47,937 bases of DNA. Source: Mycobacterium sp. E740. GTDB taxonomy: Bacteria > Actinomycetota > Actinomycetes > Mycobacteriales > Mycobacteriaceae. Shown piece after piece: positions 7,066-23,453 of the stretch (positions are counted from its first letter, which is position 1; each line of letters begins with the position of its first letter). Both the position numbers and the translations under genes were made by a program. The stretch is from assembly GCF_001672895.1 (NCBI RefSeq), contig NZ_LZKP01000102.1:1-47937 (forward strand), given 5' to 3'. Below the pieces are notes generated by a model. That model ran no database searches. It had not been told where the DNA came from and was given only the letters and a program-made list of their open reading frames with translations.

Positions 7066-7111
7066 ACCTAAAATTTGTTCTGACAGTAGCGAGACCGCGA
7101 GTCAGCGTCAA
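7066..7111 (-). promoter_or_regulatory. Promoter and operator copy 1 of the binding-protein/AveC/P450 operon
   Basis: On the minus strand, TTGACG (7106-7111) and TACTGT (7083-7088) are separated by 17 bp and make a good sigma-A-type promoter. The -35 box begins right after the cbbQ-like stop codon. The predicted transcription start, near 7076, lies inside the 15-bp element at 7066-7080 (plus strand ACCTAAAATTTGTTC), a position typical of a repressor operator. The element ends 43 bp before the start codon at 7022. Confidence 0.65.
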
Positions 7112-7930
7112 TCACCGCGCGACGGTTGCCTCGCCCAGGTACACGTCGATCATCTCGAGCAGGCCGCGTGCCACGGTCGAGTCGTCGGTGAGTGGTCCAG
7201 CGATCGCGGCGCGTGCGGCATCGCCCGCGCTCAACCCTTCGGCGATGAGTCGGCCCGCGGCGATCAGCACCCGGGTGGAAGCGACTTCCCGCAAACCACC
7301 CGTCTCCAGCCGGCGGATGGCCTGCCCGAGCCGCACCAGCTCGGCCGCCCGGTCGTGGTCTATCCCGGCTTCCGTCACCAGGATCTTCTCCTCCACATCC
7401 GGTGCGGGGAAACCGAACTCGATGGCGACCATGCGCTGGCGGGTCGAGTCTTTGAGGTCTTTGAGCACGCTCTGGTAGCCAGGGTTGTAGGACACGACCA
7501 GACAGAATCCCGGCGCGGCGGTCAATGTGACGCCCAGCCGCTCTATCGGCAATTGGCGGCGGTGATCGGCCAGCGGGTGCAACACCACGGTCGTGTCCTG
7601 CCGGGCCTCCACCACCTCGTCGAGATAACAGATGGCGCCCTCGCGCACCGCGCGGGTCAGCGGGCCGTCGACCCACACCGTCTCGCCGCCGCGCAACAGG
7701 AACCGGCCGACGAGGTCGGCGGTGGTCAGGTCGTCGTGGCAGGCGACCGTCACGAGCGGTCGATCGAGATCGTGGGCCATCGCTTCGACGAACCGCGTCT
7801 TGCCGCACCCGGTCGGACCCTTGAGGACTATGGACAGCCCCTGCCGATATGCGGCCCGAAACACCTGTTCCTCATTGGCAACGGGTACGTAGTACGGCCT
7901 CGTCGGATCCACTGACGGATTCACGGGCAT
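7112..7930 (-). CDS. CbbQ/NorQ-family MoxR-type AAA+ ATPase
   Basis: A 272-residue AAA+ protein of the MoxR branch, with Walker A GPTGCGKT (near residue 40), Walker B ICYLDEV (near 105), a sensor asparagine (VVSYNPGY) and an arginine-rich DSTRQRM segment. CbbQ and NorQ work with VWA partners (CbbO, NorD) to load or reactivate metalloenzymes such as Rubisco or nitric oxide reductase. The VWA partner is encoded directly upstream at 8007-9701. No Rubisco or NO reductase is visible here, so the client may be an enzyme of this island. The ATG at 7930 follows GAAGGGAAACG and is preferred over upstream in-frame codons. Confidence 0.92.
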   Translation of the reverse strand: MPVNPSVDPTRPYYVPVANEEQVFRAAYRQGLSIVLKGPTGCGKTRFVEAMAHDLDRPLVTVACHDDLTTADLVGRFLLRGGETVWVDGPLTRAVREGAICYLDEVVEARQDTTVVLHPLADHRRQLPIERLGVTLTAAPGFCLVVSYNPGYQSVLKDLKDSTRQRMVAIEFGFPAPDVEEKILVTEAGIDHDRAAELVRLGQAIRRLETGGLREVASTRVLIAAGRLIAEGLSAGDAARAAIAGPLTDDSTVARGLLEMIDVYLGEATVAR

Positions 7931-7973
7931 CGTTTCCCTTCGTCGCGAAACGCTTCGGCAGCAGGGTAGCGCG

Positions 7974-7988
7974 GAGCAGAAGTTTGGT
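7974..7988 (-). promoter_or_regulatory. Operator copy 2, upstream of the CbbQ-like gene
   Basis: The minus strand reads ACCAAACTTCTGCTC, identical at 12 of 15 positions to the elements at 9714 and 10153. It lies in the 76-bp gap between the VWA gene and the ATPase gene and ends 43 bp before the ATPase start, the same distance as copies 1 and 5. This suggests that the ATPase gene can be transcribed on its own. Confidence 0.5.
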
Positions 7989-8006
7989 TCAAGGACTCGT
8001 AGTTCA

Positions 8007-9701
8007 TCACGACACCCGGCGACGAAGATCGGCGGTGTGCAGTGCGGCGCGGAACAGCGGCCCGATGACATCGGCGAGCTGGCGCGGTTTCGGGATCGAT
8101 GCGTGCGCGGCGCTGCCGAACACCTTCTGCAACTCGCCCGTGTCGGTCGCGGCGCCGATGGTCAGACACAGGCAGCCGATGCCCTGCCGTCGTGCTTCGG
8201 CAAGCGCGCGGCGCGCGTCGGCGGCGCCGTGAACCCGTTCATATCCGTGGTCGTAGGCGAGTCCGTCGGACAGCACGACCAGAAGCCGGCGCTTGGTACC
8301 GGCTTGCTCGGCGATCACGGAGGTGCCGTGACGAATCGCGGCACCCAGCCGGGAGTACGCACCCGGGCGCAGACCCGCCAGCCGCTTCATCACCGGCGCG
8401 TCCATGGCCTCACCGAACCGTTTGACCGGCATCAGGTTCACAGACGAACGCCCCTGGGACTGAAACGCGTACAGCGCGACCCGGTCACCGAGTTCGTGCA
8501 GCGCGGTGGTGAGCGCGGCAGCGGCCGCGCGCTGCTGTTCGTGGACGATCTCGCCGAACGTGCCCGCCTCGGCGGCCGAACCCGACACGTCGAGCAGCAC
8601 CATCACCGCCAGGTCGCGGCGTCGGCGCAAGCTGTCGACGTAGACGGCCTCGTCCGGTGCCGAGCCGGCCAGCAGCTCGACGCGGGCCTCGACCGCGGCG
8701 TCGACGTCGATGTCGTCTCCTTGCGCCTGCCGGTGGCAGCGGTCCAGCCCAATCCCCAACCGCGTCAGCGGTCGTCGCAGCGAATGCACGTCCGGACGCG
8801 GCAGACGGTTGTCCCCGTCGACCGGGACGTCGATCTCGTGCACCGTGCACCAATCGGGGCGGTAGCGCCTGCGGCGCGCGTCCCATTCGGGATACTTCCA
8901 CCCGCTGCTCGCATCGTCACCGACGTCGGCCGAGTCGGAGGACACCGACGTCACCGACGACACAGCGGCCGAGCCACGAATGCCCTTGGCGGTTCTGTGT
9001 GTCGGAGTATCCGCGCCGGGGGTGCCGCCGCCACTGAGTTGACGGACCCGACTCATCATGCGCTGCAAGAGCTTTCCCGCCGCTCCCCCACCTCCGACCG
9101 GGCTGGAGAACGGATCCATCACATCCTCGCCGTCGCCATCCTCTTCGTCGAGTTCGGCCAATTCCTTTCGGGCGCCTCCGCGCGGCACGTGCCCGCTGCG
9201 CGTGTCGGCGCATTCCACGGCGTCACGGGCCGCAAGCAGCCGGCGGGGCTTGATGACCCCGAAACTCGGCGGTGGATCGGCGATCCCAGGGCGTCCAGAT
9301 GCGACAGTCAGCGACTCGGTCGGCGACTTCGACCACATCACGACTTTGAGATCGATCAGCGATCGCACCCGCAACGGCAGCAGGTCTTCGTTCGACGCCA
9401 ACGCCCGCTGGCCTTCGATCGCCAAGTATCGTCTGGCCAACGCCGGTCGCCGGATGAGCTTGCGCACCACGTCCGGGATGAGGCTGTCGCTCGCGAGCAG
9501 CGACGCCTGCACCACGACCGAGGCCAGCTGATCGGGTGCGCTCGCACCGCGGTCGATGAAGATCGTCAGGCTGTCGGTCCACGCCGGTTCGCCGTGCTCG
9601 CCGTCGACCACGGCGACCGCCCGACCGGCCAGTGCGGACGCCAGCAGGCTGAGCCGATGCGGGGCTTCGCCGTTCCCGCTCGTCACGCTGTGCCTCACCA
9701 C
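8007..9701 (-). CDS. CbbO/NorD-type VWA-domain protein
   Basis: A 564-residue protein with a C-terminal von Willebrand factor A domain. The MIDAS motif DVSGS is near residue 380 and a second conserved aspartate is in LVVLSDGLAYD. The central part (about 170-260) is acidic and Ser/Gly-rich and probably disordered. This matches the CbbO/NorD/CoxE group that pairs with MoxR-type ATPases; the ATPase gene follows after 76 bp. A GTG at 9701 is preferred because further upstream the reading would run through the operator at 9714-9728. A GTG at 9698 is equally possible. Likely role: substrate adaptor of the ATPase in activation of a metal or haem enzyme. The client is not identified. Confidence 0.88.
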   Translation of the reverse strand: MVRHSVTSGNGEAPHRLSLLASALAGRAVAVVDGEHGEPAWTDSLTIFIDRGASAPDQLASVVVQASLLASDSLIPDVVRKLIRRPALARRYLAIEGQRALASNEDLLPLRVRSLIDLKVVMWSKSPTESLTVASGRPGIADPPPSFGVIKPRRLLAARDAVECADTRSGHVPRGGARKELAELDEEDGDGEDVMDPFSSPVGGGGAAGKLLQRMMSRVRQLSGGGTPGADTPTHRTAKGIRGSAAVSSVTSVSSDSADVGDDASSGWKYPEWDARRRRYRPDWCTVHEIDVPVDGDNRLPRPDVHSLRRPLTRLGIGLDRCHRQAQGDDIDVDAAVEARVELLAGSAPDEAVYVDSLRRRRDLAVMVLLDVSGSAAEAGTFGEIVHEQQRAAAAALTTALHELGDRVALYAFQSQGRSSVNLMPVKRFGEAMDAPVMKRLAGLRPGAYSRLGAAIRHGTSVIAEQAGTKRRLLVVLSDGLAYDHGYERVHGAADARRALAEARRQGIGCLCLTIGAATDTGELQKVFGSAAHASIPKPRQLADVIGPLFRAALHTADLRRRVS

Positions 9702-9710
9702 CCCGCATGA

Positions 9711-9739
9711 TTGACCAAATATCTGTTCCAACGTAAAGT
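9711..9739 (+). promoter_or_regulatory. Promoter of the SDR remnant with operator copy 3 (divergent with the VWA gene)
   Basis: The plus strand has TTGACC (9711-9716), a 17-bp spacer and TAAAGT (9734-9739). The 15-bp element ACCAAATATCTGTTC occupies 9714-9728 within this promoter. It ends 44 bp before the TTG start at 9773, and it also lies 12 bp from the divergent VWA gene start, so one site could control both directions. The sequence is identical to copy 4 before the TetR gene. Confidence 0.65.
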
Positions 9740-9772
9740 GCGCGCCACCGCCCGTCAACAACCGGAGGGACC

Positions 9773-10104
9773 TTGATCGACTTCACCGGGCAGGCTGTCG
9801 TGGTCACCGGGGCAGGCCGTGGTCTCGGCCGGCTGTATGCCCTCGAATTGGCAAGGCGCGGTGCGTCGGTGGTCGTCAACGATCTCGGCGGCTCCATGGG
9901 CGGTGAGGGCTCGGACGTCTCGATCGCGGATCAGGTCGTCGCGCAGATCAGCGCATCGGGCGGCTCGGCGGTGGCGTCACATCATTCGGTGGACAGCCCC
10001 GAAGGCGGTGAGGCGAGGTGAGTGCAACCGAGCCGTTCACGGTCTCGGCCTCGATCTATGACGAGGTGTTCGCGGTGACCGAGCGGTTGGGTGTCACTGG
10101 CTGA
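9773..10104 (+). pseudogene. SDR gene with internal deletion (N- and C-terminal ends only)
   Basis: From a TTG start at 9773, behind GGAGGGA, an intact SDR N-terminus is read: Rossmann motif TGAGRGLG, NDLGGSMGGEG and SVDSPEGGEA. It stops at 10019-10021 after 82 codons. In another frame, 10021-10104 encodes 27 residues (SATEPFT...ERLGVTG) and a stop, which resemble the C-terminus of the same kind of SDR, usually about 300 residues long. Roughly 190 codons, including the catalytic Ser, Tyr and Lys, are missing and the frame has shifted. The product cannot be an active dehydrogenase. The deletion could be real decay or an artefact of the same process that folded back the contig ends. Confidence 0.8.
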
Positions 10105-10141
10105 AAGCCACTCTTCGCACTCCTTCGCGCGTACACCCTTC

Positions 10142-10167
10142 TGGTAGCGTCTACCAAATATCTGTTC
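10142..10167 (+). promoter_or_regulatory. Operator copy 4 and overlapping palindrome before the tandem TetR gene
   Basis: The 15-bp element ACCAAATATCTGTTC at 10153-10167 is identical to copy 3 and ends 38 bp before the regulator start. It overlaps a perfect palindrome at 10142-10156, TGGTAG-CGT-CTACCA. Both fit autoregulation by the TetR-type product encoded immediately downstream. Confidence 0.6.
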
Positions 10168-10205
10168 AGCAGAGTCAGACCGACGGGAGCGCAGTTGGAG
10201 GTGTC

Positions 10206-11501
10206 GTGGGGCGTCCTCGCCTGACTTCACAAGGTGCCCTCGCCGAGAACGCCGGCCACTCGTACGACGACGGCACCCGGCGCACCGAAATCCTGCAGAC
10301 AGCGGCGTCGCTGATCGCCACCTCCGGCCTGCGCACCTCGTTGCAGGAGATCGCTGACGCGGCCGGCATTCTCCCCGGCAGCCTCTATCACCACTTCGAC
10401 TCCAAAGAAGCGATTCTCGTCGAACTGCTTCGCCGCTACCACGCCGATCTGGACCGGATCGCCGAGCAAGCGCAGAGCCGCCTGGACGACCCGACCTCGC
10501 TGTCGGCATTCGAGCGCCTGGTCGACCTCGGATCGGCGATCGCTCAATGCGCGGTGACCCATCGTGCGGCGTTGCAGATGACCTTCTACGAGGGCCCGTC
10601 GTCCAACCCCGAACTCACTGCCCTGGCTCAGCAGCGCCCAACGGCGATACTGCAGGCGATGGTGCAGACTCTGCGGGCCGCGCGGTGGAGCGGGTACGTC
10701 CGGCCCGAGGTCGATCTGCAGGTGCTCGCCGACCGCATCGTCCAAACGATGCTGCAGGTCGGCCTCGACGTGATACGGCACAACGCGGGCGCCGACAAGG
10801 TCGCGACGCTACTGTGCCGAATCCTGCTGGAGGGGTTGGCCGTATCCCCGCTGCCCGACGACCGGTTGGACGCCTCCCCCGCGTTCGTCGCGGCCGACGA
10901 AGTGGTGCGGTCATGGGACTCGATCGAAGACCCCGACGACAAGGGCGCGCACATCAGGGCGGTGGCGCGCGCAGAGTTCGGGCGCAAGGGTTACGAGGTC
11001 ACCACGATCAGGGACATCGCCTCGGCCGCGGGCATGGGCACCGGAACGGTGTACCGGCTGATCGGGTCAAAGGATCAGCTGTTGGCCTCGATCATGCGGT
11101 CCTTCGGTGAGAGGGTGGCCCAGGGGTGGACCAGTGTGCTGCGTTCCGACTCCTCGCCGATCGAGAAGATCGACGCGCTGTCCTGGGTCAACACCAACGT
11201 CTTGGACCGCTTCGGTGACGAGTTCCGTATCCAGCTGGCGTGGATGCGGCAGTCTCCCCCGGACACCCCTAATCCCGGCTGGCTGTTCGCCACCCGCGTG
11301 AAGCAGATGAAATCGCTTCTGGCCGAAGGCATTCGCTCGGGCGACATCGAGATCGACAGCCCGTCGAACGAAATGCTCGCCCGCGCGGTGATCGGCGTCG
11401 GGTGGGTTCCCGAGAACATTCTGCGCGATCTGGGCACCCGCGCTTCGCAGATCCACGTCCGGGACACGTTGTTGCGCGGGGTCACGACGCGCTCGGCCTG
11501 A
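10206..11501 (+). CDS. Tandem TetR-type transcriptional regulator (two DNA-binding domains)
   Basis: The 431 residues contain two TetR N-terminal helix-turn-helix domains in one chain. The first covers about residues 24-72 (IADAAGILPGSLYHHFDSKE). The second covers about 258-305 (IASAAGMGTGTVYRLIGSKD). Each is followed by a helical ligand/dimer domain. Mce3R of M. tuberculosis has the same two-domain architecture and controls an mce operon and lipid genes; the sequences are not close enough to call this Mce3R. GTG 10206 has GGAGG upstream. The gene sits centrally in the island, with copies of one operator before six transcription units, so it is the obvious candidate regulator. Binding is inferred. 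Confidence 0.92.
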   Translation: MGRPRLTSQGALAENAGHSYDDGTRRTEILQTAASLIATSGLRTSLQEIADAAGILPGSLYHHFDSKEAILVELLRRYHADLDRIAEQAQSRLDDPTSLSAFERLVDLGSAIAQCAVTHRAALQMTFYEGPSSNPELTALAQQRPTAILQAMVQTLRAARWSGYVRPEVDLQVLADRIVQTMLQVGLDVIRHNAGADKVATLLCRILLEGLAVSPLPDDRLDASPAFVAADEVVRSWDSIEDPDDKGAHIRAVARAEFGRKGYEVTTIRDIASAAGMGTGTVYRLIGSKDQLLASIMRSFGERVAQGWTSVLRSDSSPIEKIDALSWVNTNVLDRFGDEFRIQLAWMRQSPPDTPNPGWLFATRVKQMKSLLAEGIRSGDIEIDSPSNEMLARAVIGVGWVPENILRDLGTRASQIHVRDTLLRGVTTRSA

Positions 11502-11507
11502 CGTACG

Positions 11508-12704
11508 TCAGCCCACGGTGACGGGCAGTTTGCCCCATCCCCGCACGCTCGACGTGTGCGCCATGGCGGCCTCGGCGTAGTCGACGTCCCACTCCGGCCA
11601 GCGGCGAAGCATCTCCTCGAGGGCGACCCTTGCCTGCATCCGTGCCAGCGACGAACCGAGGCAGAAGTGCAGCCCCTGCCCGAACGACAGGTGTGGTCCA
11701 GTGCGATGGATGTCGAAACTCTCGCCGTTCGGGAAGTGCCGCTCATCGCGATTCGCAGAACCGTTGAGCAACAACATCACCGAACCTTCCGCGATCGCCT
11801 GCCCGTGACATTCGGTGTCGCGGGCGACGTAGCGGGCCTGCACCGGCGAGGGTGCGTGGTAGCGCAGCACCTCCTCGATCGCCCGCGGGATCAGCGAGAA
11901 GTCGCCGACGAGTTCGCGCCGCTGATCGGGGTGCTCAGCGAGCAGTTGTGCGATGAAGCCGATCAGTCGGGTCGTCGTCTCGTTTCCGGCCCCGGCGATC
12001 ATGCTTGTGTAGGTCAGCACCTCGATCCGGGTCAACGGCCGAAGCTCGCCGTCCTCTTCGACCTCGGCGTTGAGCAACTGTGTCATCAGGTCGTCGGACG
12101 GATGGTCGGCCCGCCATTCGATGTAGTCGGCGAACAGCTGGTAGGCGTTCTCGAACGTTGCCGCCGACACGGAGCGAAAGCTCCCGTCTTTCAGGCCGAT
12201 CGCCGCATCGGTGTTGTCGCGGATCTGCTGTTGGCCCTCTTCGGGGATGCCCAGCAGGTAGCCGATGGTCCGCATCGGGATCAGTGCGCCGAAGTCGGCG
12301 ATGACGTCGAACCGGGAAGCGCCGGCGAGAGAATCGAGGGCACGCACACAGAATCGACGCGTCAACGGCTCGATGGCCTCCATCCGGCGCGGGGTGAACA
12401 CCTTGGACAGCACCCGGCGATGGAGATCGTGCAGCGGGGGGTCTTCGAACAGGATCACCCCCGGCGGTACGTCGACACCGCTCATGATGACGTCCATCGT
12501 CGTGCCCTTGCCCGACCGGTAGGTGTCCCAGTTGTGCAGTTCGCGCGCCACGTCGTCGTAGCGGCTCAGCGCATAGAAGTTGTATTTCTCGTTGTGGTAC
12601 AGGGGAGCCTCTTCGCGCATCCGGCGCCAGATCGGATACGGGTCGTCGTCGATGTCGAAGTCGAATGGGTCGTAGTAGAGGTCGACGGTTCCGGCTTCGG
12701 TCAT
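11508..12704 (-). CDS. Cytochrome P450
   Basis: A complete 398-residue P450. The I-helix motif is IAGAGNETTTR (near 240), the K-helix ExxR is EEVLR (near 280), and the haem loop is LSFGQGLHFCLG (near 345). The start ATG overlaps the stop of the DapB-like gene by 4 bp (ATGA), so it is the third gene of the LLM operon. Its 3' end is convergent with the TetR gene, with 6 bp between the stops, leaving little space for a terminator. Substrate unknown; the neighbouring flavin and NAD(P)-binding genes may provide related redox steps. Confidence 0.95.
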   Translation of the reverse strand: MTEAGTVDLYYDPFDFDIDDDPYPIWRRMREEAPLYHNEKYNFYALSRYDDVARELHNWDTYRSGKGTTMDVIMSGVDVPPGVILFEDPPLHDLHRRVLSKVFTPRRMEAIEPLTRRFCVRALDSLAGASRFDVIADFGALIPMRTIGYLLGIPEEGQQQIRDNTDAAIGLKDGSFRSVSAATFENAYQLFADYIEWRADHPSDDLMTQLLNAEVEEDGELRPLTRIEVLTYTSMIAGAGNETTTRLIGFIAQLLAEHPDQRRELVGDFSLIPRAIEEVLRYHAPSPVQARYVARDTECHGQAIAEGSVMLLLNGSANRDERHFPNGESFDIHRTGPHLSFGQGLHFCLGSSLARMQARVALEEMLRRWPEWDVDYAEAAMAHTSSVRGWGKLPVTVG

Positions 12705-13801
12705 CGTTGCTCCTGTGGTCGGGTCGTCGGTCCGAAAACATGGCGGGGCAGCGTGTTCGGCAGATCGAGTGAGCTCAGTAGGCCGGCGGGAGCCGCCACC
12801 ACGTAGGGGATCGCGTTGACCACCCGCATGGCGGTTGCGCTCATCGCCGCATGTCCCGCTGCGTGGCCCTCGGCCGCCCCGAGGTTCATCGCACAGTGGA
12901 TGTCCGGATCACCGTCGATGTCGACCCGGTACGTGGCGTCGAACTCCGATGCCGGCCAGTCCGGCGCCACATCGCGCGCCATCCGGATTATGTGCTCGAC
13001 GACGATGGCTTCTCGGCCGTTGACCACGCCCGCGGCGCGAGTGCGGACAGCGCCGCAGGTGCCTGCGCCGATTGTGCCGAACGCCACCTGAATCTCCCGG
13101 TCCGTCAGGCGACGGTCGAGGGTGCCGCGAACTTCGTCGACCTCGACGCCGAGCGCTGCGGCGATCAGGTAGATCGGTGCACGCCATGCCATTTCGATGA
13201 ATCCCGGCGTCTTCAGCAGCGGCTCGAATTCCAGTGGATGGCCGAAGCCCATGCCGTTCATCATCACGTCGGCCACCGGGTAGTGGTCGTTGAGCGCCAC
13301 CTCCGTGACTGTCAGACAACGGATTTGCTTCGATTGTGTCGCGAGCAGCAAGGCCAGCTGATCGGAGCCGAAGCCGGGAAAGATGCCGGATGCGTAGAAC
13401 GACGCGCTCCCCGCCTTCGCGGCTTCCTCCATCTGCTCGCGCCACTCGGGTGAGTAGTAGGCAGGCGGATAGATCAGGCTGGTCGATGATGTCGATACCA
13501 CGTTGACGCCTGCCGCGAGCAGCCTCAGGTAGTCGGGAACCGCCCCGGCGTCGCGTTCCGGTCCGCTCGCGGCGTATACGACGCAGTCCGGCTGCAGTGC
13601 GATGAGGGCGTCGGCATCATTGGTCGCCGCCACTCCGATCGGCTCTCCGCCGGCCAGCTCCCCGGCGTCCTTGCCGACCTTGTCCTCGGAATGCACCCAC
13701 ACCCCGACCAGTTCGAGATCGGGCCTGCCCCGGATCGCGTCGATGGCGATCGATCCGACCCCACCCGTCGACCAGACCACCGTTCTCAGCGGTGATGTCA
13801 C
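12701..13801 (-). CDS. DapB-like (2,4-diaminopentanoate dehydrogenase family) NAD(P)-binding protein
   Basis: A 366-residue protein with an N-terminal Rossmann motif (VVWSTGGVGSIAID, residues 8-21), typical of the dihydrodipicolinate reductase-like group common in mycobacterial P450 clusters. The middle contains VYAASGPERDAG and STSSTSLIYPP, and the second domain begins around residue 130. Family members include amine dehydrogenases such as 2,4-diaminopentanoate dehydrogenase, but most mycobacterial copies are uncharacterised. It lies 15 bp downstream of the LLM gene and overlaps the P450 start by 4 bp. Reaction here unknown. Confidence 0.85.
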   Translation of the reverse strand: MTSPLRTVVWSTGGVGSIAIDAIRGRPDLELVGVWVHSEDKVGKDAGELAGGEPIGVAATNDADALIALQPDCVVYAASGPERDAGAVPDYLRLLAAGVNVVSTSSTSLIYPPAYYSPEWREQMEEAAKAGSASFYASGIFPGFGSDQLALLLATQSKQIRCLTVTEVALNDHYPVADVMMNGMGFGHPLEFEPLLKTPGFIEMAWRAPIYLIAAALGVEVDEVRGTLDRRLTDREIQVAFGTIGAGTCGAVRTRAAGVVNGREAIVVEHIIRMARDVAPDWPASEFDATYRVDIDGDPDIHCAMNLGAAEGHAAGHAAMSATAMRVVNAIPYVVAAPAGLLSSLDLPNTLPRHVFGPTTRPQEQR

Positions 13802-13816
13802 GAATCCTCCCGATCC

Positions 13817-14785: not shown

Positions 14786-14828
14786 CAGCTCCACGCCAAG
14801 GCCGAAGGGCTCACGCCGAACGACTCTA

Positions 14829-14875
14829 ACCTAATTTTTGTTCTGGCTCTCGGTAATAGTGAATGCTATTCTCAC
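14829..14875 (-). promoter_or_regulatory. Operator copy 5 and dyad in the LLM operon promoter region
   Basis: The plus strand reads ACCTAATTTTTGTTC at 14829-14843, matching the 10153 element at 12 of 15 positions and ending 43 bp before ATG 14785. Just upstream, AATAG (14855-14859) and CTATT (14866-14870) form a 5-bp dyad, and GTGA (14859-14862) with TCAC (14872-14875) a second, offset one. The AT-rich stretch may hold the -10 region; no clear -35/-10 pair was identified. Confidence 0.5.
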
Positions 14876-14924
14876 TCGACATCGTGGCACAATCCCCCGA
14901 AGCGCCGGACCTATGACTGAAGCC

Positions 14925-14944
14925 GGACGGTCCGTCGACCGTCC
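14925..14944 (-). terminator. Stem-loop downstream of the mce operon
   Basis: GGACGGTC (14925-14932) and GACCGTCC (14937-14944) make a perfect 8-bp GC-rich stem with a CGTC loop, 12 bp beyond the stop of the last mce-operon gene. There is no U-tract, as is common in actinobacteria. A terminator is likely but not proven. Confidence 0.5.
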
Positions 14945-15439: not shown

Positions 15440-17022
15440 CGCGGCCCCGCCTCGTAGATCATGTCCTTCCACGACTTCGGCCCTTCGACGAGGTCGGTCT
15501 GGCGGCCCACGGTCCCGTCCGGCGTCGAATACTGCCCGGTCTGGGGGTCATAGTGGGCGATCGCCACGGAAGGGCCGCCGCCCGGCGGCCCCGGCTGGAT
15601 CGCCGCCTCTGACGACAGTGGCGGAATCGCTGCCGGCGGCAACTTCGGCATCACGGCCCCGGGCAGCGGTGCAGTCACCGCAGACGGCATCGGTCCCCGC
15701 GGGACGGCGCCCGGCGGAAGCGCAGTGCCCTCGACCGGCGCGAACAAGTTCTCGTCCGCCCTCACCCTGTCGTCGGGCAGCACTCCTTGCGCGATGAGGT
15801 TGGGATCGATCGGATAGGGACCGAGCGTGTGCTGGCGCATCGCGAGCGGCTCGAAAGGCTTGTCGCTGTAACACTGCTCGACGGTGGGCGCTCGTTTGCC
15901 GGGCACACCCATGCAGGGCGCATTGCGCGCACCGCGTACCAGGATCGGCGAGTCCTGCGGCAGCTTGCAGTAGATGCCGTCCGGTGTGTCGACAGTGGTC
16001 AGGTCGGCAGGACTGCGCCACTCCGACGGGGGCAGGAATCCGACGGTGCACGGGTTCGGGTCCGTGATCTGGATCCGGAAGTCGCCGAGCGCAATACCGG
16101 TCGGATTGTTCTGGGGAGCCGAGGATTGCGCGTTCGCCACAAACGGCGGCAGCAACACGAGCACCTGTTCGAGCGAGGGTCGATAGGTCACCGCAACCTG
16201 ACCGAAGGTCGTCAGATTGGCGAGCAGCACCGGCAGGGTCGGCCTTATCTGCTCGAGCAGTCGGGCCGCCTCATTCGCCGCGGGCGGCCCCTCGGTCAGC
16301 AGCGTTCGCACCTGCTCGTCGTTGACCACGACGTGATGGGTCACCCCCGCAAGGCTGTGCGTCCACAGGCGCAGCGCGTCGGTTGTCCGGGCTTGTGAAT
16401 CGAGAAGGGGCACAGCGTCTTCGATCAGCCGCGGCGAGCGGTCGGCATCGCCGTTCAGGGCCGCCGAGAACTTCGCCGACGAATCGATCAGCGACCCCAT
16501 GTCATAGCCGGCGCCGCCGAACGCGTCGAAGGATTCGTCGATCAACGTGTTCAGCTGCCCCTTGGGAATACTCGCGATCAAGGCATTCGCACGATCCAGC
16601 ATCGGGCTGACCGGCTGGGGAATGCTGGTGTCGGCCATCGCGATCACCGAACCGTCCTGCAGGTACGGCGGTGAGTCAGTCCGGGGCAGCAGTTCGACGT
16701 ACTGTTCGCCGACCGCCGAGACGCTGCGCACCTCGGCTTTCAGATCCGCGGGAATCTTGGGCGAAGTGCCGAGCCGCAATGTCGCGGTGGCGGACGTGCG
16801 GGACACATCCATCTCGGTCACCTTGCCGACCTGCACGCCGCGGTAGGTGACGTTGGCGAAGCGGTACAACCCGCCCGAGGCGGGCAGCTGCAAAGTGACG
16901 GTGATCTTCCCGATGCCGAGCAGAGTGGGGACCTGCATGTAGGCGAACACCATCGCCACCACACCGATGATCGATGCGATCGTGAAGAGCACCAGTTGGA
17001 TTCGGACCATCCGTGGCAACAT
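15436..17022 (-). CDS. mceF: MceF-type MCE/MlaD protein
   Basis: Sixth Mce subunit, 528 residues. An N-terminal membrane segment (about 9-30) is followed by the MCE/MlaD domain (about 40-120, with YRGVQVGKV and VSAVGEQYVELLP) and a long helical region. A proline/glycine-rich tail begins after residue 400. Mce subunits assemble a periplasmic channel that carries lipids across the mycobacterial envelope. ATG 17022 shares one base with the mceE stop, and its own stop overlaps the secreted-protein start. The C-terminal extension is long for the family. The mce subgroup number cannot be assigned from this window. Confidence 0.94.
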   Translation of the reverse strand: MLPRMVRIQLVLFTIASIIGVVAMVFAYMQVPTLLGIGKITVTLQLPASGGLYRFANVTYRGVQVGKVTEMDVSRTSATATLRLGTSPKIPADLKAEVRSVSAVGEQYVELLPRTDSPPYLQDGSVIAMADTSIPQPVSPMLDRANALIASIPKGQLNTLIDESFDAFGGAGYDMGSLIDSSAKFSAALNGDADRSPRLIEDAVPLLDSQARTTDALRLWTHSLAGVTHHVVVNDEQVRTLLTEGPPAANEAARLLEQIRPTLPVLLANLTTFGQVAVTYRPSLEQVLVLLPPFVANAQSSAPQNNPTGIALGDFRIQITDPNPCTVGFLPPSEWRSPADLTTVDTPDGIYCKLPQDSPILVRGARNAPCMGVPGKRAPTVEQCYSDKPFEPLAMRQHTLGPYPIDPNLIAQGVLPDDRVRADENLFAPVEGTALPPGAVPRGPMPSAVTAPLPGAVMPKLPPAAIPPLSSEAAIQPGPPGGGPSVAIAHYDPQTGQYSTPDGTVGRQTDLVEGPKSWKDMIYEAGPR

Positions 17023-18182
17023 CAGCCGCCACCTCCCGGTTCCCAGGGGGCGGGCGCCGCGTTCGGAATCGGCCCGAACGGCGGCGAAGTGCCGACGCCC
17101 ATCGGGAACTTCGTGTAGTACGCGTCATAGCCCGGATCGCCGGGAGCGGGGACCAGGGAGGCCCGGTCCTGCCCGAGCTTGGTCCCCAGCAGCAGCCCTC
17201 GCTTGATCCGGGCATTGGTCCAATCGACGGTCACGAAGAGGTTCACGTAATCTCCGCGGACGCCACGGTCGATGATGTTCTGCGTCAACGGGAACGTCGG
17301 TAGCCAGGCCAGCGCGGTGTCGATCTCGGGCCCCACATCGGCGAGTGCCCGCAGCGTCGGCTCGAGGTTCTGCAGGTTCTTCACCAGGTCGGCCTGCGTG
17401 TCGTTGATCAAGCCGGAGACCGTGTCGCTGAACTGGCCCAAGCGCTCCAGCGCGGTGGTGAACCTGGGCCGCTCCTGCAGCAGTACGTCGAGCGCCGGCG
17501 GGACTTTCCTCAACGCCCGCGTCAGAACCTCCTGCTGGTCTCCCAGCCGCTGAGCGAACCGGTTGAGCTCGTCGATCGTCGCAATGATGTTGTCGCGCTG
17601 CTGGTAAAGAGTTCCGACGAAGGTGTCCAGGCGGGTGATGAGGTCGCGCACGGCGCTCTGGCGGCCCGACAGCGCAGTGTCGAAGTTGGCGATGATGTCG
17701 CCGATCTGACCCAGGCCGCCACCATTGACGACTGCCGCGACGGACGACAGCGTCTTCTCGGTGGATGGATAGGTCGACGTCTGGTCGAGCGCGATCGTCG
17801 CCCCGGGTGCCAGCCGCCCGGCCGGCGCCACGCCCGGCGGCGGGTCGAGCGCCACATGCATGGAACCCAACAGGCTGGTCTGCCCGACCGTGGCGACCGC
17901 GTTCGCGGGCACGGCCACGTCCGGCTGCACCGACAGCTCGAGGTCGATGTGCCAGCCGTGCAAGGTCATCTTGCCGACACTGCCGACCACGACGTCGTCG
18001 ATCATCACCGGCGAATTCGATTCCAGCGTACCGATATTCGCCAGTTCGGCGTGGTATACGGTCGCACCGGGTCCCCGACCCACCGCGCCAGGGAGCGGGA
18101 GCGAGTTCACGCCCTGAAACGAGCACCCGGTGATCACCAGCACGATGCTGAGCCCGGTCGCGAGCAGCCCGCGCGCGGTCAC
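17022..18182 (-). CDS. mceE: MceE-type lipoprotein
   Basis: A 386-residue protein beginning with a lipoprotein signal ending LVITGC (modified Cys at about residue 20), as expected for the fifth Mce subunit, which is lipid-anchored. The MCE domain spans about residues 40-115 (MIDDVVVGSVGKM, ATVGQTSLLGSMHVAL). A helical needle-forming region and a short Pro/Gly-rich tail follow. The GTG start at 18182 overlaps the mceD stop by 4 bp. As an Mce component it should be part of the lipid-import channel. Confidence 0.95.
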   Translation of the reverse strand: MTARGLLATGLSIVLVITGCSFQGVNSLPLPGAVGRGPGATVYHAELANIGTLESNSPVMIDDVVVGSVGKMTLHGWHIDLELSVQPDVAVPANAVATVGQTSLLGSMHVALDPPPGVAPAGRLAPGATIALDQTSTYPSTEKTLSSVAAVVNGGGLGQIGDIIANFDTALSGRQSAVRDLITRLDTFVGTLYQQRDNIIATIDELNRFAQRLGDQQEVLTRALRKVPPALDVLLQERPRFTTALERLGQFSDTVSGLINDTQADLVKNLQNLEPTLRALADVGPEIDTALAWLPTFPLTQNIIDRGVRGDYVNLFVTVDWTNARIKRGLLLGTKLGQDRASLVPAPGDPGYDAYYTKFPMGVGTSPPFGPIPNAAPAPWEPGGGG

Positions 18183-19600
18183 GGTGGCGTTCCCTCGTTC
18201 GGGACCGGCGCCACTGCGGCCGGTGTAGCGGGCGCGCCCGGCCGCTCGGCGGGCAGCAGCATGTCCCGCAGGGTCGGCGGACCGGGCTGCGCAGGCGCAG
18301 ATCCGGGCGGCGGCGCAGGCGTGCCGGCCGGCGGAGATCCAGGCGGCGGCGCGTAGCCGGGTGGCGGCGCCACGTCACCGGCTCCTGTGTAAGCCGAGAC
18401 CGCGGGCGGCGCCTCCGGCTGAGCCGCCTCTGCGCCGCCCGCGCCGGGCATCAGACTCGGCTCGGTGTAGCGCAGCATGTAGGGCGGCGGGTTCGAGGAC
18501 AGGAACAGGCTGAAGGGGAACGGCAGGTTGTTGAAGTTGACGGTTCTCAAGCCCGGCCCGAGATACTGCGAGCACAACTTCGCCGTCGTCGGTGCGGTGA
18601 CGTTTCCGAGCGCTCCGATCATCCCGCAGAAGAACCACACCGGATTCGACAGGTTGTTCAGGACGAACACGCCGCTGGCGGCACCCGTTCGCGGATCGAA
18701 CATGTTCACCACGTTGGCGATCGAGTGCGGCGCGATGTGCAGGACGTTCTCCAGCGCCATGCGATTGTCGGCGAGGTTCTGCGTGACGTTGGCGAGCCGT
18801 TGGATCTGCTCGGCGGTCTGGTCGCGCGAACCCCGGATGAACCGGGTGGCGTCGCCTACCACGTCGGACAGGTTCCTCAGCGCGCCGTCGAGATCCGATC
18901 GGCTGTCGTCGACAACGCTTGTCAGCGTTGCGAACCTGTCCTGGAACTGCACGATCTGCTCATTGCTGTCCCGCAGCGCTGTGACGAACGTCTGCAGGCG
19001 GGCGATCGTATCCACGATGTTGCCGCTACCGTCGGCCAGAATTCGGCCGACGCCCGACAGCTGCGCCAGCGTCTGACGCAGCTTGTCTCCGTTGCCGTTC
19101 AGCGCCGTGGCGGCACTGTCGATGAACCGGCCCACCGAACCGGTCGAAGATCCTCCTGTGGGGCCGAGATCTGTGGCCAACCGCATCAGTTGCTCTTTGA
19201 CCTCGTTCCACTCGACCGGCACGGCAGTGCGCTCGACCGGGATCACCGCCCCGTCGGCCATCGCGGGTCCCGACTCGTATGCGGGGGTGAGTTGGACGTA
19301 CCGAGCCGAGACGAGGTTCTGGGCGACGATCACCGCCTTGGCATCGGCGGGAAGCCGGATGCCATGGCGGACCGACAGTTTCATCTCCGCCTGGGTGCCG
19401 ACCGGGTTGATCGACTCGATCGTGCCGACCTTGACCCCCGCGATGCGCACCTCGTCGCCGGGATAGATCGCGGTGGCGGTGGTGAAGTAGGCGGTGACCC
19501 TGGTGGGCCCGAACGCCGTCTGCCGGATCACGACGACTATCCCGCCGGCGAGGACGGCCACCAACGCGAGCACAAGGGCGCGTCTGAGGAATCTGCTCAT
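18179..19600 (-). CDS. mceD: MceD-type MCE/MlaD protein
   Basis: A 473-residue fourth Mce subunit. The N-terminal transmembrane helix (about 8-27) is followed by the MCE domain (about 35-110: EVRIAGVKVGTIESI, QNLVSARYVQLTP), a coiled helical region, and a low-complexity Pro/Ala/Gly tail from about residue 395 onward with repeated PPPG units. ATG 19600 overlaps the mceC stop by 4 bp; upstream in-frame codons would only add residues inside mceC. The proline-rich tail probably lies outside the channel core and may contact the cell wall; this is inference. Confidence 0.95.
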   Translation of the reverse strand: MSRFLRRALVLALVAVLAGGIVVVIRQTAFGPTRVTAYFTTATAIYPGDEVRIAGVKVGTIESINPVGTQAEMKLSVRHGIRLPADAKAVIVAQNLVSARYVQLTPAYESGPAMADGAVIPVERTAVPVEWNEVKEQLMRLATDLGPTGGSSTGSVGRFIDSAATALNGNGDKLRQTLAQLSGVGRILADGSGNIVDTIARLQTFVTALRDSNEQIVQFQDRFATLTSVVDDSRSDLDGALRNLSDVVGDATRFIRGSRDQTAEQIQRLANVTQNLADNRMALENVLHIAPHSIANVVNMFDPRTGAASGVFVLNNLSNPVWFFCGMIGALGNVTAPTTAKLCSQYLGPGLRTVNFNNLPFPFSLFLSSNPPPYMLRYTEPSLMPGAGGAEAAQPEAPPAVSAYTGAGDVAPPPGYAPPPGSPPAGTPAPPPGSAPAQPGPPTLRDMLLPAERPGAPATPAAVAPVPNEGTPP

Positions 19601-20700
19601 CGCGGCGGCGCCCCCCACTGCTCGTTGGGTTGCGGAATTCCGTTGTACGGGAACGGTAATTCGGCGCGCGGCCCGGCGTTGGCCGGTGGCTGACCCGCGT
19701 TGACGCCGCGCCGGAAGCCGAACGCGTAATCGAGGAACGGTTGCAACAACTCGCCGAAGAAGATGTTGGGTATGTAGGCCTGGTAATAGGGTCCGTTGCC
19801 GATCGTCTCGCCCAGCGTGGTCTGGAACTTCGCCAGTCCGGGAAGCGCTTTGGCGATGTTGTCGCGGTTCTTCTCCAAAACCGCGGTGACCCGGTTGAGC
19901 TTTTCCAGCGTGGGGGCGAGCTGCTCCTCGTTGTCGGCGATCAGACCGGACAACTGCTTGGCCATCGCCGAGGTGTGCGCGAGCAACTCGACGATGGCGT
20001 AGCGCCGTGCCGACAACACCCCGACGAGGTCATTGGCGTTGAGGATCAGCGTGTTCACCTGTTGGCTGCGGTCGGAAAGGATCTTGCTGACGTCGGCGCC
20101 GTTGGCGAGCAACTCGCCGAGGGTGCCGTCACGGTCGTTGATCGCCCGCGACAGCCGGGACAGCCCGTCGAACGTCGGGCCGAGTTGCGGCGCGACCTGA
20201 TCCAGGGTGCCCGACAGAGTGTCCAGCGACTGGTTCAACGATGCCGTGTCGGTGCCCGCGGTGTTGGTCGTTAGATCGCTCACCGCCTCCGTCAGAGAAT
20301 ACGGGGACGCGGTGCGCGACAACGGAATCACGTCCATCGGGTGCAGCGATCCCGCGCCCCTGGATTCCAGGGTCAGCACACGCTCACCCAGCAGCGTTCC
20401 GGTGCGGACGTGTGCTGTCGTATCGGAGCCCAGCGGTACCGACCCGTCGATCGTGAACGTCACCACCGCGTTGCGGCCCTGCAGCGCGACATCGGACACG
20501 CTGCCGACCTTGATCCCCGAGATGGTCACGTCGTTGCCTGCGGTCACCCCACCGGCATCGGCGAACTGAGCCTGGTAGCGCACCGCCGTCGCCCACGACG
20601 CCAACCGCTCGGGGGCCAGGCCGACCGCGATGACGAGCAGGACCAGGACCACGCCGATGAGACCGGCCCGGATCAGGTGGTTGCCACGGTATTTCAGCAT
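19597..20700 (-). CDS. mceC: MceC-type MCE/MlaD protein
   Basis: A 367-residue third Mce subunit. It has an N-terminal membrane helix (about 12-30), the MCE domain (about 38-115: DVTISGIKVGSVSDV, GTLLGERVLTLE), and then a long helical segment rich in regularly spaced hydrophobics that builds the tunnel in known Mce complexes. The ATG overlaps the mceB stop by a single base (TGATG). It ends with a short Pro/Ala-rich tail. All spacings in the operon point to one polycistronic transcript. Confidence 0.95.
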   Translation of the reverse strand: MLKYRGNHLIRAGLIGVVLVLLVIAVGLAPERLASWATAVRYQAQFADAGGVTAGNDVTISGIKVGSVSDVALQGRNAVVTFTIDGSVPLGSDTTAHVRTGTLLGERVLTLESRGAGSLHPMDVIPLSRTASPYSLTEAVSDLTTNTAGTDTASLNQSLDTLSGTLDQVAPQLGPTFDGLSRLSRAINDRDGTLGELLANGADVSKILSDRSQQVNTLILNANDLVGVLSARRYAIVELLAHTSAMAKQLSGLIADNEEQLAPTLEKLNRVTAVLEKNRDNIAKALPGLAKFQTTLGETIGNGPYYQAYIPNIFFGELLQPFLDYAFGFRRGVNAGQPPANAGPRAELPFPYNGIPQPNEQWGAPPR

Positions 20701-21725
20701 CAGGGCTCAGCGCACCTTCCGGTCTCCTGTTTGATCCACGGGAAAACCGCCGTGCGGCCCTGCAGGTCAGTCACGCGCCACTTGAGCTCGCAGATGTAGT
20801 AGTTGAAAAAGCTTCCGTACGACCCGGTGCGGACCAGTTTGCGGTAGTTCTCCGGCGCTTTCTGCAGGCCGGTGTCGACCCGGTCCTTCTGGAAGTCGAG
20901 GTTCGTGGCGGCGCGAGCGAGTTGGTCCACCGTTCCGGCCAGCGGGGCCCTGGCGTCACTGAGGAGGTCGGCGATCGACGCCGTGCCCTTGTCGAGCGAA
21001 TCGATCGCCGTGCCGATCGGGTCACGTTCTGCGGCAAGCTCAGTCACGAGCCGCTCGAGACGATCGATCGTGCCCGAGAACTTGTCGCCCTCCCGATTGA
21101 GCGTCTTCAGCAGGGTCCGCAGGTTGTCGATCAGCGCCTGGATGGTCTGGTTGTGTTCGGACAACGCGGCCGTGAAGCCCGACGTGTTGGTCAGCAGCGA
21201 CTGAAGTGTGCCGCCCTGACCCTGGAAGATCTGGATCAGCGAGGCGGACAGCGTGTTCACATCTTGCGGATTCAGCCCGCGGATAACGGGTTTGAGGCCT
21301 CCGAGCAGCAGGTCGAGGTCGAGCGCCGACTGGGTGCGCTCCAGCGGGATCTGCGAGTCGGGTGGCATCGGTGACCCCGCCGGACCCTCGATCAGCTCCA
21401 GGTACCGGTCACCGACGAGGTTCAGGTAGCGCACGGCGGCCCGCGTGCCCGTCGTCATCCGCACGTTCGGATCGGCGTCGAAGGTCACCAGCACTGTCTT
21501 GTCGGGCTGCAGTTTGACGCTGTCGACCGTTCCCACCCGCATTCCCGCGACGCGCACCGACTGTCCGGCCTCGAGCCGTGACGCGTCGGCGAACACCGCG
21601 GAATACCCCTTGGTGCTGCCGGTTTGGTACTGACCGAAGATGAAGAACAACGATGCGGTCAGCAGCGCCATCACCAACGCGAAGATCCCGAACTTCACCA
21701 GAGTGGAACGCAACGAGCGCCTCAT
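20700..21725 (-). CDS. mceB: MceB-type MCE/MlaD protein
   Basis: A 341-residue second Mce subunit. The membrane helix (about 12-32) is followed by the MCE domain (about 40-120: SVRVAGMRVGTVDSV, VRYLNLVGDRYLELIEG) and the helical tunnel segment. The C-terminus has three tryptophan/cysteine-containing stretches (YYICELKWRVTD). ATG 21725 overlaps the mceA stop by 4 bp (ATGA). The frame is open far upstream, but that reading lies antisense or out of frame within mceA and is rejected. Confidence 0.95.
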   Translation of the reverse strand: MRRSLRSTLVKFGIFALVMALLTASLFFIFGQYQTGSTKGYSAVFADASRLEAGQSVRVAGMRVGTVDSVKLQPDKTVLVTFDADPNVRMTTGTRAAVRYLNLVGDRYLELIEGPAGSPMPPDSQIPLERTQSALDLDLLLGGLKPVIRGLNPQDVNTLSASLIQIFQGQGGTLQSLLTNTSGFTAALSEHNQTIQALIDNLRTLLKTLNREGDKFSGTIDRLERLVTELAAERDPIGTAIDSLDKGTASIADLLSDARAPLAGTVDQLARAATNLDFQKDRVDTGLQKAPENYRKLVRTGSYGSFFNYYICELKWRVTDLQGRTAVFPWIKQETGRCAEP

Positions 21726-22915
21726 CCCGGTTGACCGATCTGCGCGGTGTTGCGGGGCGGCCCGGCAGTTTCGGTGTCGGGGAACATGATCCGCTTGATG
21801 ATGTCGGCGTTCAGGACGATGCCCGGATAGGTGCGACGCCACGGATTGGTTCCGGTGTCGGCGACCACGTACGGTGCGACGCCTTCGAACGGCATTTTCG
21901 GCAGCCCGGTGCACTGCGGACCACCTGTGGCGCCGGCCTTCGGGAGATCCATCGGATAGCGGTAACGCTCCTGCGCCCACAGGAATCCGGCCAACACCTC
22001 GACGCCGGGCGCCTTGAACGGCGGCCGATGGGAGAGCTCGACCATGCCCGCCAGGGCGCACCACAGCGCTTGGTTGTACTGGTTGGTCAGGTCGGTGGTC
22101 GGCACCAGCAGATGAAGGACCTCGGTCAGCGGCTGGCGATTCGGGCCGATCACCTCGTTGCCGATGTCGGCCAGCCCGATCAGGCTGACCAGCGCCGCGT
22201 CGAGGTTCTGCTGTTGGTCGACGACGGTGTCGCTGATGCGAGCCGCGTTGTCGGCTACTGTCACGAAATCCGTTGCCGCATCGGCATATGCGCCCGCCAC
22301 ACCCGGGGCGAGTTCGAGATCGCGGCTCAGCGCCGGCAGGCTCGGCTCGAGCTTCGCGAGGTAGGAATCGAGATCCGAAAGCATCTTGCCGAATTTCTCG
22401 CCGCGCCCGGACGTGGCCGCGGCGATCGCGCCCAGCGTCGCGTTGAGCTTCGCCGGTTCGATCGCCGACAGCACCGAGGTCAACTGCTCGAACACCGTGT
22501 TCATCTCGACCATGACGTGTTGCGCCTCGATCACCTGGCCGGCGTGCAGCGACTGCGGCGACGGATCGTCCGGATAGACGAATTGCACCTGCTTGGCCCC
22601 GAAAACCGTCGGCGACGCGATGTCCACTCCCGCGTTGGCCGGGATCGCGTCGAGCCGGGACGGGTCGATCGCGAGGTGGATGGCCGCCTGGCCGTTGGGC
22701 AGTGCCTCGATCGATGCGACCCGGCCGACCTGTACACCGCGGACCTGAACCTTGGCGTCGGGGTTCATCACCAGACCGGCGCGCTGAGACAGGACGGTGA
22801 CCGGAATGGCGTCGGAGAAGCCGCCGCGAAACAGGTTCGCCGCCAACGCGAACACCGCCACGACCGCGATAACGGACACCAACCCGACCAGTGGACGCAG
22901 CAGATACTGTCTCAC
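21722..22915 (-). CDS. mceA: MceA-type MCE/MlaD protein, first gene of a yrbE-less operon
   Basis: A 397-residue first Mce subunit. The membrane helix spans about 8-26, the MCE domain about 35-110 (AKVQVRGVQVGRVASI, ASPTVFGAKQVQFVYP), and a helical region follows. The C-terminal part has the conserved cysteines of MceA proteins (ALWCALAGM, GGPQCTGLPKMP). The start is GTG 22915, with GGGG eight bases upstream. Mce operons normally begin with two YrbE permease genes directly before mceA. Here the next gene upstream is the unrelated DUF2469 gene 540 bp away, so no permease is present locally. Confidence 0.95.
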   Translation of the reverse strand: MRQYLLRPLVGLVSVIAVVAVFALAANLFRGGFSDAIPVTVLSQRAGLVMNPDAKVQVRGVQVGRVASIEALPNGQAAIHLAIDPSRLDAIPANAGVDIASPTVFGAKQVQFVYPDDPSPQSLHAGQVIEAQHVMVEMNTVFEQLTSVLSAIEPAKLNATLGAIAAATSGRGEKFGKMLSDLDSYLAKLEPSLPALSRDLELAPGVAGAYADAATDFVTVADNAARISDTVVDQQQNLDAALVSLIGLADIGNEVIGPNRQPLTEVLHLLVPTTDLTNQYNQALWCALAGMVELSHRPPFKAPGVEVLAGFLWAQERYRYPMDLPKAGATGGPQCTGLPKMPFEGVAPYVVADTGTNPWRRTYPGIVLNADIIKRIMFPDTETAGPPRNTAQIGQPG

Positions 22916-23453
22916 CGGTCAACCCCGCGTCGGGGAGCCGACCCGCATTTCGCCGGTCGGCGCGATGTGCCCGTTTCCCCCCCAGCGTGCATCCGAGGAC
23001 GGTGCAGCACTCTTCGCCGGAACATATCTTTGGGTCAGAAGCCCCTTCGCACGAGGGCTGCAGGCCAAACCATCATCGCCCCCTCCAGTCGGCCAACAGC
23101 CGGAATTTTCGTTTGCTGAGCAAGGATGTCACACCCTCCCGCCCTGTTCAAGAGGCAATTACGGGACATCACGACGTTTTCTGTCTCATCCATGGAACGG
23201 CCGTCCGGCGCACGTCACGCACGCACGCAGACGCAAGCATAGCGGAACAAGGATTCGGCTCGGCCGCCCCACGATTGTCGGACAACAGCTCCAGAGCTCG
23301 ATCCCGCACGCCGCAAAGAATCATCCCGCGCGCGAAAGCAGAACATCGGCAAACGCGAGAAGAGAGACGGCCAGTATCGGAAACGCCGTGCGCGGCACCG
23401 ACGTTGTCGCGCACGTCAAAAACGGTGTGCAGCCGCAAGACTCGGCGGTGCCG
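22916..23453. other. Non-coding region before mceA (no yrbE genes)
   Basis: 538 bp without a credible gene. Next to the mceA start is a small hairpin, CCCCG-CGT-CGGGG (22923-22935). Operator copy 6 is at 23020-23035. The remainder is less GC-biased than the genes and holds no recognisable YrbE fragment in either strand. An 89-codon minus-strand frame at 23169-23438 has no homologous look, no fitting ribosome-binding site, and was not called. This is the border between the accessory island and the conserved chromosome. Confidence 0.7.
23020..23035 (-). promoter_or_regulatory. Operator copy 6, upstream of the mce operon
   Basis: The minus strand reads ACCCAAAGATATGTTC. After removing one C it matches ACCAAATATCTGTTC at 13 of 15 positions. 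It lies 104 bp upstream of the mceA start, farther than the other copies. The single-base insertion makes this the least certain copy of the series, but it is the only such sequence in the mce promoter region with this level of agreement. Confidence 0.4.

Follow-up and report, generated by a model that had tools for sequence, protein, structure and literature searches.

A 15-bp element, ACCWAAnATYTGTTC, was analysed in a stretch of 47,937 nucleotides from Mycobacterium sp. E740 (hereafter the window). It corresponds to a complete contig of an assembly of 4.62 Mb and makes up about 1% of the DNA. The window carries a catabolic gene island and, at 10206-11501, a gene (here tetR) for a TetR-type protein with two TetR units in one polypeptide (double TetR). 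The element is a conserved site located on predicted core promoters. Very probably it is the operator of the double TetR, which would keep both its own gene and the catabolic island repressed until a ligand releases it. A preliminary description of this DNA had proposed an operator and a local regulon; both are real as sequence features, and their spread is far wider than the window shows.

Occurrence and conservation of the 15-bp element

Six matches to ACCAAATATCTGTTC with at most three mismatches are found in the window, compared with a mean of 0.14 (largest 2) in 100 dinucleotide shuffles. They are listed with scores from a position weight matrix (PWM), built from 166 sites of other genomes after removal of near-duplicate sites, and with the number of related loci in which the orthologous gene has a site.

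7066..7080, plus strand: predicted operator copy 1, ACCTAAAATTTGTTC, before the binding-protein operon; three mismatches; PWM 25.6; orthologous site in 46/55 loci
7974..7988, minus strand: predicted operator copy 2, ACCAAACTTCTGCTC, before cbbQ; three mismatches; PWM 15.9; orthologous site in 49/55 loci
9714..9728, plus strand: predicted operator copy 3, ACCAAATATCTGTTC, exact, between the divergent sdr and cbbO-like genes; orthologous site in 54/57 loci, identical in 53
10153..10167, plus strand: predicted operator copy 4, ACCAAATATCTGTTC, exact, in the promoter of tetR itself; 52/80 loci at up to three mismatches
14829..14843, plus strand: predicted operator copy 5, ACCTAATTTTTGTTC, before the luciferase-like monooxygenase (LLM) operon; three mismatches; PWM 25.7; orthologous site in 9/18 loci
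23020..23035, minus strand: predicted operator copy 6, ACCCAAAGATATGTTC, 16-bp form, before mceA; kept in two related loci (L047 and L067); PWM rank 21/35

A pattern scan of the window bore out the preliminary description, in which copies 3 and 4 were given as exact, copies 1, 2 and 5 as matching at 12 of 15 positions and copy 6 as matching at 13 of 15 with one inserted base. Copy 6 can be read as a 15-mer (23020-23034, minus strand) with three mismatches or as 16 bases, the insertion being a C. The housekeeping half had been described as free of copies, and the right half of the window indeed holds no further match at up to three mismatches; at a PWM score of at least 12, scanning the window returned copies 1-5 with their own reverse matches and nothing else. 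Sites occur in both orientations, as had been stated, copies 1 and 5 being inverted relative to their gene. The assignment of the copies to separate transcription units was correct as to the genes, except that copy 3 precedes a broken sdr gene and copy 6 is weak by score.

Conservation was analysed in 80 loci from Mycobacterium, Mycolicibacterium, Mycolicibacter and Nocardia (1.57 Mb in total). These are the best 80 of 532 relatives of the double TetR, with 65-83% identity over the best segment, and are not independent. At up to three mismatches they contain 318 matches; six control strings of equal composition gave 1, 2, 3, 4, 12 and 35. The counts per gene in the list above refer to sites within 250 bp upstream of the orthologue, with orthologues below 45% identity or with less than 120 bp of upstream DNA left out; the reversed pattern gave 0 in every gene group. 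Enrichment before island orthologues, which had been named as a check on the regulon, is evident from these counts. Conservation in orthologous promoters, the second check, was seen in alignments and in a motif-blind search for the most shared 15-mer. For cbbQ and the LLM gene this 15-mer was the motif itself (37/44, best elsewhere 22; and 14/14, elsewhere 4). Neighbouring promoter bases came top for cbbO (45/49) and tetR (48/68), as did neighbouring promoter or coding sequence for the binding-protein gene (43/48), with strings overlapping the motif at 44, 46 and 41 respectively.

The near-constant spacing to start codons noted earlier holds in the window, where the gaps are 43 (start at 7022), 43 (7930), 44 (9773) and 43 bp (14785); for copy 4 the distance to the GTG start of tetR (10206) is 38 bp. 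A fixed 43-bp gap as a general rule was rejected, since the distance to projected starts in relatives is 17-52 bp in 44/46 binding-protein genes and 21-141 bp at cbbQ. The conserved trait is the place of the site relative to the predicted -35 and -10 elements and not the gap to the start codon.

Within the whole assembly, 35 matches with up to three mismatches were found (reversed pattern, 9), of which six, including both exact ones, are inside the window. When the 35 were ranked by PWM, window copies 1-5 took ranks 1-5 (30.9, 30.9, 25.7, 25.6 and 15.9), followed by a score of 15.2. A simulated genome of equal size yielded four matches at a PWM score of at least 15 and none at 18 or above. Copy 2 is thus notable by its place and its orthologues, not by its score, and the best match outside the island (C105:18681, PWM 15.2) is unremarkable for the same reason. 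Dismissing outside matches as intragenic was also considered, as all 15 examined out of 29 lie in six-frame open reading frames of at least 375 bp. This argument was dropped as uninformative because all six window copies also fall in such mechanical reading frames of this G+C-rich genome.

Presence or absence in genomes, which are not independent in these counts, was scored with a strict pattern, AMCWAAYATYTGTTC, fixed after the 80-locus count. Among 151 genomes of the family the pattern was present in 11 of the 12 with the protein (at least 54% identity) versus 2 of the 139 without it (10 of which hold a 28-32% identical relative), and a control pattern was present in 1/151. For the genus (198 genomes) we found both in 118, the protein alone in three, the pattern alone in three and neither in 74, so that 118/121 genomes with the protein had the strict pattern versus 3/77 without; the control gave 0/198. 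Of the three that have only the protein, G112 and G284 carry a variant site adjoining tetR. The binding-protein gene (5910-7022) is present in 117/198 genus genomes, mostly at 73-94% identity, and 115 have protein, binding-protein gene and strict site together. The operator was not seen in the branch with 28-32% identity, as its ten loci are without a site at a PWM score of at least 15. In four Nocardia loci (L098, L130, L136, L140) that have the system, the right half of the site is shifted (ACCAAATATTCGTTC or ACCTAATATTCGTTC). Carriage on plasmids was considered and found no support: a search of 72,556 plasmid records with the protein gave no match at E 1e-30.

A better pointer to the regulator than co-occurrence is the site in the regulator's own promoter, a feature of autoregulation. 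Copy 4 shares an alignment column with the sites of relatives at the tetR promoter. The core AnCAAAnnTTTGnT was present with at least 8 of 10 positions within 25 nt after CTGnTAnnnT in 69/71 loci, versus 0/71 shuffled segments.

Another TetR protein as regulator was searched for with a two-sequence helix-turn-helix (HTH) profile and rejected: 70 of the 80 loci have no other TetR-like open reading frame, and ten have one further, with no cluster in more than three loci. By eye, one of these clusters is a double-TetR paralogue. The double TetR is present in two or three copies in L079 and L089 and in genomes G029, G160, G189, G238, G275 and G320, some of them 48-54% identical to that of the window; the regulator thus has paralogues, which may differ in site or ligand.

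Several observations weigh against the double TetR as the regulator of the whole island. Near the projected tetR start, 28/80 loci have no site at up to three mismatches, and the LLM genes lack one in 9/18 loci. Inner genes of the presumed operons seldom or never have a site of their own (P450c 3/14, DapB-like 3/21, AveC-like 0/53), so that their control would depend on operon structure. One genome with the protein (G328) has no listed site nearby. The pattern occurs without the protein, at E 1e-20, in G154 and G289 (fragmented assemblies that hold the binding-protein gene), in the complete G297 and in two family genomes. Because the protein and its presumed targets travel together, presence alone cannot separate regulator from target, and the search for other TetR genes was based on a profile from two sequences. 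The more distant mceA genes, described below, point in the same direction.

Predicted promoter elements and the mce operon

Promoter elements were predicted as consensus matches. In the counts of TAnnnT beside the binding-protein, cbbO and LLM sites and in the tetR core counts, sites of the other orientation are left out.

7083..7088, minus strand: predicted -10 TACTGT of the binding-protein operon, with 2 bp between it and operator 1; TAnnnT up to 9 nt upstream of the site in 42/44 loci
7987..7992, minus strand: predicted -35 TTGAAC of cbbQ, overlapping operator 2; TTGA there in 47/49 loci
7963..7968, minus strand: predicted -10 TACCCT of cbbQ, 18 bp from the -35; TAnnnT up to 12 nt downstream in 49/49 loci
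9711..9716, plus strand: predicted -35 TTGACC of sdr, overlapping operator 3; TTGA abuts the site in 53/54 loci
9734..9739, plus strand: predicted -10 TAAAGT of sdr, after a 17-bp spacer; TAnnnT in 51/54 loci
9730..9735, minus strand: predicted -10 TACGTT of the cbbO-like gene, overlapping the -10 of sdr and separated from operator 3 by 1 bp; TAnnnT up to 9 nt upstream in 53/54 loci
10145..10150, plus strand: predicted -10 TAGCGT (after TGG) of tetR; CTGnTAnnnT in 71/80 loci
14823..14828, minus strand: predicted -10 TAGAGT of the LLM operon, immediately next to operator 5; in 9/9 loci TAnnnT follows the site without a gap

At sdr (TTGACC-17-TAAAGT) and cbbQ (TTGAAC-18-TACCCT) the operator fills the spacer between the two hexamers, and both elements flank the site in 50/54 sdr and 47/49 cbbQ promoters. 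For the binding-protein operon (TACTGT), tetR (TAGCGT) and cbbO (TACGTT), only one or two bases separate the operator from a -10-like hexamer upstream of it. A clear -35 was not seen for the LLM promoter on the window sequence. Copy 1 had been placed on a predicted transcription start. With the predicted -10 TACTGT 2 bp away (TAnnnT in this place in 42/44 loci), operator 1 would cover the start point; as a competing TAnnnT runs into the opposite end of the site in 33/44 loci, the -10 of this operon is only tentative.

Autoregulated repression by the double TetR, with predicted binding to the 15-bp site, is the most likely mechanism. Its two unlike HTH units would read two unlike half-sites within one chain, and the bound protein would block the RNA polymerase, at sdr, cbbQ and mceA by filling the spacer and at the LLM operon by abutting the -10. 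At the binding-protein operon, tetR and cbbO the operator would follow the -10 and cover the start point. Operator 3 would close two divergent promoters (sdr and cbbO-like) with overlapping -10 elements. The inducer may be a compound that the encoded oxidative pathway consumes or yields.

The mce operon requires separate consideration, as copy 6 is background by score (PWM 7.1, rank 21/35). In two close mceA orthologues (L047 and L067; 84 and 86% identity) the 16-bp site is bracketed by TTGACC and TAAAGT, the promoter frame of sdr. Their upstream DNA reads TTGACCCAAAGATATGTTCCGGCGTAAAGT and TTGACCCAAAAATATGTTCCGGCGTAAAGT, respectively, and the window is one base off in the -35 and two in the -10. 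In the promoter alignment the close mceA orthologues thus have the site (2/2), while the three more distant mceA genes there (L064, L096, L110) showed none; in the 80-locus count, more distant mceA orthologues likewise had no site (0/2). The PWM score as sole judge of copy 6 was set aside, because the orthologous mceA promoters keep it, and the copy was retained at lower confidence. The putative assignment of the mce operon to the regulon via copy 6 is held to about two chances in three, because three sequences are few. The smaller, still substantial chance that copy 6 and the mce operon stand outside the regulon and the resemblance is fortuitous would account for the score and the distant genes. 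It sits less well with the retention of the 16-bp form and both hexamers in the close orthologues, amid upstream DNA that is otherwise different in large part, and a PWM made from 15-bp sites penalises a 16-bp copy. Farther upstream of mceA there is a weak candidate for a seventh operator:

23245..23259, minus strand: candidate operator, GCCGAATCCTTGTTC, aligning with GCCAAATAATTGTTC (L047) and GCCTAATTCTTGGTC (L067); PWM 5.1

A second conserved stretch upstream of mceA, at 23110-23200, comprises CTTGAACAG, then GTGACATCCTTG and CAGCAAAC in gene direction, and is partly common to L047 and L067. No yrbE pair lies beside mceA-F, the next genes being those for DUF2469, RNase HII and signal peptidase; eight MlaE/YrbE matches are located on four other contigs of the assembly.

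Mode of action and relation to known regulators

The double TetR might also bind the site as an activator, or as both activator and repressor, and switch the island on. The TetR-like GplR1 of M. abscessus has both effects according to the part of PMC12455991 available to us. Such a mode is unlikely here, as the sites overlap predicted -35/-10 elements or the predicted start point, where a bound protein should obstruct the polymerase, and sdr has good hexamers of its own.

The predicted repressor itself is the following protein:

10206..11501, plus strand: double-TetR protein of 431 aa, predicted repressor; TetR_N (PF00440), 96 bits over a cut-off of 24, two stretches

The TetR_N DNA-binding domain marks it as a member of the TetR family. 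Its first HTH spans residues 29-74 and its second lies near 245-293, and both are kept in a 37-sequence alignment. The predicted fold matches Mce3R over most of its length, with M1-M2 modelled as an intramolecular pseudo-dimer. The closest solved structures to the first half are 2ibd (a Rhodococcus regulator) and KstR2, and in pairwise comparison the sequence is nearer to KstR2 (41.6 bits over 99 residues) than to Mce3R. The site is pseudo-palindromic overall. Within its 14-bp core, almost every binding-protein, cbbO or LLM site lacks pairing at 2/13 and at one of the positions 4/11 and 5/10; cbbQ (2/13 paired in 29/43) and tetR sites (5/10 paired in 33/37) are more symmetric. Judged from sequence and model, the system would be an Mce3R-type repressor with a KstR2-like operator.

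Mce3R (Rv1963c) of M. tuberculosis is a double-TetR repressor, and the passages available from PMC11667970 report its structure as the first of this kind. According to these, its mce3 operator consists of two asymmetric 25-bp sites 53 bp apart, the stronger of them about 100 bp before the start codon. The window protein has the same double-TetR architecture and modelled fold, but 16% identity, and the sequence match is weak and mainly in the first HTH. Compared by description, Mce3R has paired 25-bp operators, whereas the window has single 15-bp pseudo-palindromes on predicted core promoters; at mceA, copy 6 and the weak candidate are 209 bp apart and not 53 bp. The target genes also differ from those of the island (AveC-like, CbbQ-type, P450s). 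The available part of PMC10843139 holds nothing on the Mce3R site.

For KstR2, the motif is AnCAAGnnCTTGnT, its central G..C being kept in 8/9 of the sites in Table 3 of PMC3068626, as far as that source was available. The earlier statement that the consensus does not match the KstR or KstR2 motifs needs correction, since the site resembles that of KstR2: the 14-bp frame is the same and 7 of the 10 fixed positions agree in register. The centre is A..T here, so that the site departs from the full AnCAAGnnCTTGnT, and KstR2 has a single unit and other genes, in contrast to two TetR units in one chain. The shared positions would fit a reading in which KstR2, or a KstR2-like regulator encoded elsewhere, binds the site and the island extends the KstR2 sterol regulon. 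We consider this highly improbable. Besides the altered centre, the site is present in the promoter of tetR itself and tracks the double TetR across the 198 genus genomes; kstR2 is widespread in mycobacteria, which would not predict such tracking.

A shared promoter feature instead of an operator is barely credible: although TTGA and TAnnnT flank the site at sdr and cbbQ and account for part of the conservation outside the 15 bases, the element is found in both orientations and in varied places relative to the -10, and the strict pattern is present in only 2/139 family genomes without the protein, all of which supports the earlier preference for an operator over a promoter hexamer.

Repression of the island by the double TetR may have a broader meaning. 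We see an even chance that the system is a third lipid-type mycobacterial regulon beside those of KstR and KstR2, with a double-TetR repressor of a new class, in which a first unit like KstR2 and a divergent second one would read the unlike halves of a KstR2-derived pseudo-palindrome. Its promoters would include those of a private Mce importer, an AveC-like protein, a CbbQ-type ATPase and several oxygenases, and the regulon would occur in Nocardia and, within the genus, in about 60% of the species sampled. In any case the island has a sequence-defined regulon and a named candidate regulator, the latter in 121/198 genus genomes and the first gene in 117/198. After Mce3R (PMC11667970, in its available passages), the protein offers a second test case for DNA reading by double-TetR proteins. 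Its predicted operator is short and strongly conserved, and can be set beside the site of KstR2, a close relative with a single unit.

The available part of PMC4482099 predicts operators for 30 mycobacterial TetR regulators via motif discovery at TetR promoters; its search was for palindromes at TetR genes that are divergent and conserved, given by M. tuberculosis numbers. A literature search by titles, abstract starts and passages, with most subscription journals outside its range, found no publication on the regulator, the site or the function of the island among the papers listed. Within the same range, the letters CAAATATCTGTTC gave a single match, on fission yeast polymerase.

The gene island

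The genes of the island, with the results of a domain scan of their proteins, are as follows.

5910..7022, minus strand: binding protein, Peripla_BP_6, first gene of the presumed operon
4774..5950, minus strand: AveC-like protein, start codon uncertain; PF17198, E 1.1e-76
3891..4829, minus strand: SDR
2420..3901, minus strand: aldehyde dehydrogenase
1186..2499, minus strand: cytochrome P450
230..1189, minus strand: cytochrome P450
7112..7930, minus strand: CbbQ/NirQ/NorQ-type AAA ATPase; PF08406 and PF07728
8007..9698, minus strand: VWA-domain protein (cbbO-like), start codon uncertain; PF13519
9773..10021, plus strand: sdr remnant, broken; three-frame translation gives about 83 codons, a stop, then a C-terminal-like stretch in another frame (by eye)
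11508..12704, minus strand: cytochrome P450
12701..13801, minus strand: DapB-like dehydrogenase; PF19328
13817..14785, minus strand: LLM; PF00296
15436..22915, minus strand: mceA-F genes; MlaD and Mce4_CUP1 domains

This gene set looks like one for uptake and oxidation of a hydrophobic compound. Although Peripla_BP_6 heads the operon, the scan of island genes turned up no ABC permease. The CbbQ-type ATPase and VWA pair (7112-9698) presumably resembles the NorQ/NorD chaperones; each has its own operator, and no obvious metalloenzyme client was seen besides the P450s. The sdr gene is intact in relatives, and the copy in L150 is an SDR by Pfam. Further genes downstream of sites in the 80 loci encode an SDR behind tetR, an acyl-CoA dehydrogenase and an amidohydrolase (one member each by Pfam). 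Together, the P450s, SDRs, aldehyde dehydrogenase, LLM oxygenase and mce genes, with the acyl-CoA dehydrogenase and amidohydrolase of relatives, narrow the possible substrate. For one M. avium isolate, the part of the source available lists genes for a spirocyclase, P450, SDR, aldehyde dehydrogenase, TetR and CbbQ together.

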